Shown one piece after another: positions 46,413 to 47,821 of a stretch of DNA of 47,821 bases. Source of the DNA: Candidatus Eisenbacteria bacterium (GTDB lineage Bacteria > Orphanbacterota > Orphanbacteria > Orphanbacterales > Orphanbacteraceae). The stretch spans positions 90,519 to 138,339 of the forward strand of contig JAFGGD010000031.1 of assembly GCA_016930695.1 (NCBI GenBank), written 5' to 3'. Numbering within the stretch: position 1 is the first letter of the stretch; each line of letters begins with the position of its first letter. Both the position numbers and the translations under genes were made by a program. The notes beneath the pieces were generated by a model. That model made no database searches and was not told the origin of the DNA. It saw nothing but the letters and a program-made list of their open reading frames with translations.

Positions 46413-46504
46413 ATATCCAAGAGGTGCCTTGAGAAATGCCCTGCTCCCGCCGATACGTCGGCGGAGGGGGCGAGCCGGCTTTTCGCCCGCGAGAGGAGGG
46501 AGCG

Positions 46505-47560
46505 GTGCACTACCAGGGGATTGCGCAGGCGATCGACCGCGTGGTCCGCCAAGGAGTCGGTTTCGACGCGCCGGAAATGCGCTTCGCCATGGGCGAGATC
46601 ATGGAGGGGCGGGCGACGGACGCGCAGATCGCCGCCTTTCTGGTCGGCCTGCACATGAAGGGGGTGACCGTGGAGGAGATCCTCGGCGCCGCCTCGGTGA
46701 TGCGGGAGCGCACACGCACCGTCCGGACCGCGCACGACGTAGTGCTCGACACCTGCGGCACCGGCGGCGACGGGACCGGCACCTTCAACGTCTCCACCGT
46801 GACCGCTTTCGTGACCGCGGGAGCCGGCGTTTGCACGGCCAAGCACGGAGGCTACCGGGTGTCGAGCCGCTGCGGGAGCGCGGAGCTTCTCGACGCGCTC
46901 GGCGTGAACATCCGTCCCGCGGTGACGGAAATGGAGACGGCCCTGCGGGAGGGGCGGATCGCCTTTCTCTTCGCGCCTCTGCTGAACGACGCCATGAAAC
47001 ACGCCGTCGGGCCCCGTGAGGAGATCGGCGTACGCACCCTCTTCAACCTGCTTCTCCCCCTCACCAATCCCGCCGGCGCCGGCCGGCAGCTGCTCGGCGT
47101 GTACGACCGGTCCCTTCTGGAGCCGGCCGCCGAGGCTCTCCAACGACTCGGCTCGGAGAGGGCTTGGGTGGTGCACGGCGCCGACGGCAGCGACGAGATC
47201 ACGCTGACCGGGACGACCTACGTGGCGGAGATGTTCGGCGGTACGGTGAAGACCTTTACTCTGGAGCCGGAGGATTTCGGTTTCGAAAAGGTCTCTCTGA
47301 GCGAGATTCTCGGAGGAGAGCCGGAGAAGAACGCCTCCATCGCCCTTTCGGTGCTCCATGGGGAGCCGGGGCCGGCGCGGGAGACGGTGATCGCCAACGC
47401 GGCGGCGGCCCTCCTCATCGCCGGTCACGCACTCACCCTGGAGGAGGGGGTGGATCGGGCGATGGAATCGATCGATTCCGGCGCCGCTCTCGGCCGCCTT
47501 GAATACCTCCGCTCCTTCGGCCGCGGCCCGGCGGACTTCCTGAGCGATCTATCCTGGTAG
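46505..47560 (+). CDS. trpD: Anthranilate phosphoribosyltransferase
   Basis: This 351-residue enzyme transfers phosphoribose from PRPP to anthranilate in tryptophan synthesis. Canonical motifs are DTCGTGGDGTGTFNVST (PRPP site), TAKHGGYRVSSRCGSAELLD (usually KHGNR.VSS; here Gly-Tyr replaces Asn-Arg), FLFAPLLNDAMKHAVGPREE, GVRTLFNLLLPLTNPAGA and VVHGADGSDEIT. GTG 46505 is chosen because GAGGAGGGAG lies just upstream; an ATG at 46436 would add a non-family extension. No other trp gene is in the window, so it may be transcribed alone. Confidence 0.95.
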   Translation: MHYQGIAQAIDRVVRQGVGFDAPEMRFAMGEIMEGRATDAQIAAFLVGLHMKGVTVEEILGAASVMRERTRTVRTAHDVVLDTCGTGGDGTGTFNVSTVTAFVTAGAGVCTAKHGGYRVSSRCGSAELLDALGVNIRPAVTEMETALREGRIAFLFAPLLNDAMKHAVGPREEIGVRTLFNLLLPLTNPAGAGRQLLGVYDRSLLEPAAEALQRLGSERAWVVHGADGSDEITLTGTTYVAEMFGGTVKTFTLEPEDFGFEKVSLSEILGGEPEKNASIALSVLHGEPGPARETVIANAAAALLIAGHALTLEEGVDRAMESIDSGAALGRLEYLRSFGRGPADFLSDLSW

Positions 47561-47596
47561 CGGATTCCACGACCATTCTTCCGGCACATTACGTGG

Positions 47597-47821
47597 ACGA
47601 ACCCCCGGTTCTCCTCCTCTCGGGATAAGAGAAAAGCCCTTCTCGCGAAAGGCTTCTCTCTTCTTATGGTACGCCCGAGAGGATTCCCCGCTCCCGGCTG
47701 GCGCCGGTCTCGGGATAAGGGGCTCTAGGAGGGCCGTTCCCTTCGGTCTCGTCCTCCAAGAGCCCCTAACGAACCCCCGGTTCTCCTCCTCTCGGGATAA
47801 GAGAAAAGCCCTTCTCGCGAA
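47597..47821. repeat. Array of long hairpins with an exact 53-base direct repeat (cut by window edge)
   Basis: The 53 bases 47597-47649 recur identically at 47769-47821, offset 172, and the second copy is still matching at the last base. The motif CTCGGGATAAG occurs three times (47619, 47709, 47791). Hairpin A: CCTCTCGGG (47616-47624) and ATAAGA (47625-47630) pair with TCTTAT (47662-47667) and CCCGAGAGG (47674-47682). Hairpin B: AGGGGCTCT and GGAGG (47718-47732) pair with CCTCC and AGAGCCCCT (47753-47767) with one A-A mismatch. There is no coding frame. Origin unknown; tandem terminators, a mobile hairpin repeat or an assembly effect near a contig end are possible. Confidence 0.75.

Follow-up and report, generated by a model that had tools for sequence, protein, structure and literature searches.

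A detached tRNA-Arg(CCG) 3' end in a tandem hairpin array at a contig edge: an island-like locus and possible recombination scar in Candidatus Eisenbacteria

Islands that integrate into tRNA genes can be recognized by the tRNA fragments they displace, a principle set out in the Islander paper, in which the crossover sites are the anticodon loop, the T loop, and the T-acceptor junction (PMC4383910). The Pf-5 paper likewise places attachment sites in the T and anticodon loops of tRNAs (PMC2647930). Here we describe a locus of Candidatus Eisenbacteria in which a tRNA 3' end lies apart from its gene, within a repeat of hairpins. The window is the whole stretch of 47,821 nucleotides that was analyzed, and the locus lies in its last 260 bases, directly after trpD. 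Its features are as follows.

46505-47560, plus strand: trpD (anthranilate phosphoribosyltransferase), the upstream neighbor, identified from its translation, the list of open reading frames, and Pfam Glycos_transf_3 and Glycos_trans_3N
47597-47649, plus strand: 53-nt direct repeat, copy 1
47615-47683, minus strand: hairpin H1, an outer 10-bp stem plus an inner stem
47618-47707, no strand assigned: sub-unit E1, 90 nt, consisting of motif, hairpin H1, tRNA end, and spacer
47619-47629, plus strand: 11-mer CTCGGGATAAG, copy 1
47627-47662, minus strand: inner stem-loop of H1, resembling an intrinsic terminator, with 16 pairs predicted by folding on the minus strand
47667-47686, minus strand: displaced tRNA-Arg(CCG) 3' end, from T loop to CCA
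47708-47789, no strand assigned: sub-unit E2, 82 nt, consisting of motif, hairpin H2, and tail
47709-47719, plus strand: CTCGGGATAAG, copy 2
47718-47767, no strand assigned: hairpin H2 (weak), with arms at 47718-47732 and 47753-47767
47769-47821, plus strand: 53-nt direct repeat, copy 2, truncated by the contig end
47791-47801, plus strand: CTCGGGATAAG, copy 3

The array is a 172-bp tandem repeat of two sub-units that is cut by the contig edge. The original prediction of a 53-base repeat at a 172-base offset, with a boundary motif present three times, holds exactly and at confirmed coordinates: the two 53-nt copies are identical, and the 12-nt direct repeat TCTCGGGATAAG occurs in three exact copies at 47618, 47708, and 47790, with spacings of 90 and 82 nt. 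When the sequence is cut at TCTCGGGATAAG, a division by motif spacing that is our own, it reads as the last 21 nt of E2, a full E1, a full E2, and the start of E1 again. Tandem Repeats Finder did not list the array, presumably because fewer than two full copies are present. Elsewhere in the genome, the start of contig C15 (L189) carries a tandem repeat in which two sub-types, each about 78 nt long, alternate with a period of 156, similar to E1/E2 in plan and dissimilar in sequence.

The repeat had also been expected to continue beyond the window, where it cannot be followed because position 47821 is the last base of contig C31 (138,339 bases). We therefore considered contig ends across the assembly, 118 in all after both ends of C1, which read N, were left out. 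Ninety finish in at least 15 nt that recur within the contig-end set, 37 of these in exactly 87 nt shared with another end, and six, including that of C31, close on a direct self-repeat 25 nt or longer, so that a contig breaking off within a repeat is ordinary for this assembly. Such ends, together with the second 53-nt copy stopping exactly where the contig does, are what would be seen if the contig had simply run into its own earlier copy and no real tandem duplication existed. We regard such an artefact as improbable, even for this part of the picture. The base preceding the repeat differs between the two copies, which rules out a trivial loop at the join, and an artefact would leave untouched the tRNA end, the hairpins, and motif copies 1 and 2, all of which lie inside the contig. 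Many contig ends (for example L237, L246, and L254) also carry a dispersed repeat, with GGCACGGTCCGGATGC at 30 of 120 ends and TCTCGCTCGCCGACCCACC at 23 of 120; this repeat does not occur in the window, and blastn shows no relation between it and the array. A further sequence, GTATTCCGTATTGTGTCCCCGGAATT, is found at two of 120 ends, the start of C43 (L217) and the end of C52 (L286), and at C43 it sits within a terminal repeat of offset 128.

The tRNA-derived part of the array is its most informative component. Read on the minus strand from 47686 to 47667, GAATCCTCTCGGGCGTACCA is identical at 20 of 20 bases to the end of tRNA-Arg(CCG) in G004, a genome of the same family, and it stands here without the 5' part of the gene. 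A 17-mer from this sequence, GAATCCTCYCGGGCGTA, matched 13 times in the seven genomes of the phylum: seven matches are exact, one per genome, and six carry one mismatch. In each of the six relatives the exact match lies inside an intact tRNA-Arg(CCG), and in the genome studied here the single exact match is the one in the array. Of the six one-mismatch matches, all in relatives, three fall in tRNA-Arg(TCT); the other three lie outside tRNA genes and, being within long open frames in every case, were set aside as chance matches. One stretch came up repeatedly in the short matches to the 260-bp query. Of the loci returned, eight were run in ARAGORN, which placed a tRNA-Arg at the match in six, the remaining two being matched by other parts of the array. 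An attempt to extend the tRNA match back to the anticodon was not significant, as 582 of 3000 random stretches of the window extend equally. The resemblance to a tRNA 3' end with CCA is thus stronger than first proposed, and derivation of the array from a tRNA end is strongly supported by the identity to G004 and by the 17-mer in all six relatives. The CCA of tRNA-Arg(CCG) itself is encoded in G002, G004, and G005 and is not encoded in G003 (L087 5692-5766) or G001 (L088 4033-4105).

An intact tRNA-Arg(CCG) is present in the same genome, at C43:21645-21720, 114 bases from the end of that contig. Its positions 1-49 are identical to those of all six relatives, and the 10 changes that separate it from the G004 gene all fall at positions 50-76, with the T stem and acceptor still fully paired. 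Clustering of this kind would have a chance of 8.8e-6 under independence of the changes, an assumption that does not hold for paired stems. Because the gene is unchanged over positions 1-49 and altered from position 50 on, its conserved tail appears to have been replaced, and we infer a foreign source for the new one. The array fragment and the intact gene have 13 of 20 bases in common and therefore do not provide an identical attachment core. The two boundaries also differ: a change in the 5' strand of the T stem means that the new tail begins by position 50 and would require a crossover before that point, whereas the fragment begins at tRNA position 57.

Gene order in related genomes suggests how the fragment and the intact gene may once have been connected. 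The trpD gene next to the array, for which an alternative upstream ATG at 46436 is also open, is 57-67% identical to trpD of four relatives; among the 80 loci listed in a search with a trpD alignment, the highest identity was 56%, and no close relative was among them. In all four relatives read (G001, G002, G003, and G004), trpC, trpF, and trpB come after trpD, with tRNA-Arg(CCG) next, all in the space of about 3-5 kb, the trp genes being assigned by eye from translations. A PilM protein adjoins tRNA-Arg(CCG) on C43, and a similar-looking protein, also judged by eye, lies beside the tRNA of G001 and G003. Given this order and this neighbor, C31 and C43, although unjoined, probably end in one unassembled interval. 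Reversing C43 puts its tRNA on the minus strand, matching G003; the 3' end of the gene would then point toward trpD, and the array fragment is oriented likewise. A fragment located 3' of the tRNA and oriented with it, the geometry of an island, is consistent with the G003 gene order, across two contigs that remain unjoined.

The genes expected between trpD and the tRNA (trpC, trpF, and trpB) are absent after trpD on C31. A search of the genome for trpC, run without a positive control, gave no match, trpF had none in the contig ends, the sole place searched, and trpA had none over the cut-off. For trpB there is one long match, on C25, 52% identical to the G004 protein, and two weak ones. The long match (G000:C25, L094 6645-7994) lies apart from trpD and has an N-terminal extension. 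Since trpC was not found and the sole long trpB match is on C25, the local trp genes would appear to be either lost or located within the gap. No integrase was seen among the 10 proteins scanned beside the C31 and C43 ends, between which the interval is unassembled.

Taken together, a tail conserved in six relatives survives here in detached form, and the intact gene on C43 differs from position 50 onward. We lean toward an explanation in which recombination at the tRNA-Arg(CCG) locus left the array as a scar, comprising the displaced 3' end and its terminator, probably generated through integration of an element and then duplicated. An integrating element, or another recombination within the 3' part of the gene, would have given the tRNA its new tail, and the old tail with its terminator hairpin would have been pushed toward trpD. 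The detached piece may then have undergone an inverted duplication, yielding the long H1 quasi-palindrome, followed by a 172-bp tandem duplication within whose second copy the assembler would have stopped.

A possible, if doubtful, alternative dispenses with the integrating element. The interval from trpD to tRNA-Arg could have been broken by deletion and template switching, leaving the tRNA end and its terminator, and the tail of the intact gene could have been changed by gene conversion or compensated drift. Several of the observations above are compatible with such a history, namely the lack of a visible integrase and of a common attachment core, the full pairing of T stem and acceptor in the new tail, the missing local trp genes, and H1 itself, a quasi-palindrome of the kind made by template switching. 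It accommodates less readily that the changes set in abruptly at position 50 and that the old tail survives at another place, two features that fit integration well.

Viral sequences point to this tRNA end as an integration target in other genomes. The 20-mer GAATCCTCTCGGGCGTACCA was found in eight IMG/VR contigs. It ends a whole tRNA-Arg(TCT) in two, and in the other six a partial tRNA-Arg occupies the position and ARAGORN finds no tRNA; five of these six retain a stretch running from the anticodon arm (CCTCCGGAGC) through CCA, and L295 has a shorter piece. Pfam identifies tyrosine integrases 35, 98, and 143 bp from the 20-mer in L295, L296, and L298, respectively, and about 1.8 kb away in L301, with the same protein at the same distance in L302; the piece of L299 that was fetched contains none. 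Given these partial tRNA-Arg sequences beside tyrosine integrases in proviral contigs, the tRNA end serves elsewhere as a landing site, the array and the viral contigs being compared by the 20-mer alone. The original suggestion of a recombination or attachment array consequently gains support from the proviral parallels and from the altered intact tRNA; with no common core and no integrase seen, it falls short of proof. We describe the array as island-like, not as a proven island, on those two grounds and because the crossover and the fragment start do not coincide (50 versus 57). A more specific proposal, that the 172-bp unit functions as an array of multiple attachment or integrase-binding sites, with tandem tRNA-end attachment sites, belonging to a mobile element in the unassembled gap, seems to us very improbable.

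Turning to the hairpins, both of the large palindromes that had been predicted are present, and they differ in strength. In comparisons with dinucleotide shuffles, H1 is very strong, with z scores of -4.30 on the plus and -4.82 on the minus strand and none of 200 shuffles as good on either, and H2 is weaker, with z scores of -2.35 and -2.07 and 4 and 6 of 200 shuffles as good. The minus strand of H1 folds better because its two G-U pairs turn into mismatches on the plus strand. On the minus strand, TAAG comes after the old tRNA end and leads into the 16-pair hairpin with a U-rich 3' arm, so that H1 sits 4 nt past CCA, as does the terminator behind the genome's own tRNA-Met. A fold of -25 kcal/mol or lower occurs within the next 50 bases of five of 37 distinct tRNAs of this genome (those found around 30 of 42 tRNA places), and the tRNA-Met hairpin is the closest in layout. 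A simple consensus terminator scan listed neither H1 nor H2, despite the great stability and U-rich 3' arm of H1, and Rfam gave no family at the gathering threshold in the array (best sub-threshold match E 0.21; nothing reliable at a loose threshold). Judged from its position and fold, the simplest predicted function of H1 is to terminate transcription of the former tRNA gene. In minus-strand transcripts it would be the old tRNA's intrinsic terminator, and, placed between convergent genes, it could stop transcription from either side. The proposal of stacked terminators is partly right: H1 comes after the tRNA end on the minus strand as a hairpin resembling an intrinsic terminator, with a layout found behind some of the genome's own tRNAs.

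The outer stem of H1 derives from part of the tRNA end copied in inverse orientation (TCCTCTCGGG, 10 of 10 bases), with GGTTC at the matching distance upstream. This copy looks like a template-switch product, an origin that we infer from its arrangement. This 18-base match of the plus strand to the tRNA end, taken alone, is within the range of shuffled sequences (score 21; largest shuffle 29), and the outstanding feature of the inverted copy is the pairing of both H1 arms.

The array is confined to one locus. Across the genome (3.78 Mb), the 11-mer CTCGGGATAAG has four exact occurrences, three of them inside the array; the sequence around the fourth, in C23, was read and contains no such array. 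With up to two mismatches it occurs 19 times in the window against 16.2 expected, so only its exact copies are special. The 260-bp query found only itself in its own genome at E 0.001 and gave short matches only in 145 genomes, as did the array in the seven phylum genomes; two short matches in G006 proved on reading to resemble ordinary genes. Phage and plasmid records yielded short, weak matches only, and other contig ends held no further array sequence, the blastn matches there being 13-17 bases long. Viral contigs had no match to patterns built from the array unit, from the altered tail of the intact tRNA, or from the array fragment plus TAAG, and genome contigs had none to the H1 pattern. 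The tandem hairpin repeat family initially envisaged thus has no other copy in the genome, the phylum, or the collections searched, and a genome-wide family was rejected. Alternating hairpins with a common boundary motif do recall a dispersed palindromic family such as REP or BIME, or a hairpin array like that of integrons. With no second locus in the genome, only short matches outside it, no viral or genome contig matching the patterns, and no cassette genes in the array, this reading is extremely improbable and largely refuted.

As an isolated repeat the array is of modest significance. Its interest lies in a tRNA gene that has apparently exchanged one 3' end for another, with the original end persisting apart from the gene, in a phylum for which only seven genomes were examined. 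Contig ends in such assemblies may conceal recombination junctions, and an element found in the gap would reveal a site of integration in a phylum that has been little sampled.

Among described systems, REP and BIME palindromes (PMC3733652) are, like H1 and H2, adjoining intergenic palindromes downstream of a coding region; they occur in high copy number, whereas the array is a single, tRNA-derived locus. In integron attC arrays gene cassettes separate the hairpin sites and an integron integrase is present; the 82-90 nt units here leave no space for cassettes. Among literature titles none describing a tRNA-end hairpin array was found. The intrinsic terminators behind the genome's own tRNA-Met, tRNA-Asp, and tRNA-Arg(ACG) resemble H1 in forming a hairpin within a few bases of CCA, with an A-rich 5' side and a U-rich 3' side. 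Unlike them, the array has only a 3' fragment of the tRNA, its U tract is interrupted, and its outer stem pairs with the tRNA end itself. The remaining comparison is with the displaced fragments at the far end of tRNA-integrated islands and prophages, as described in the Islander paper (PMC4383910). The array differs from these in that its fragment is not identical to the genome's own intact tRNA, lies within a tandem hairpin repeat, and has flanks on unjoined contigs with no integrase seen. It shares with them a detached tRNA 3' end running from T loop to CCA and an intact gene with a changed 3' part.
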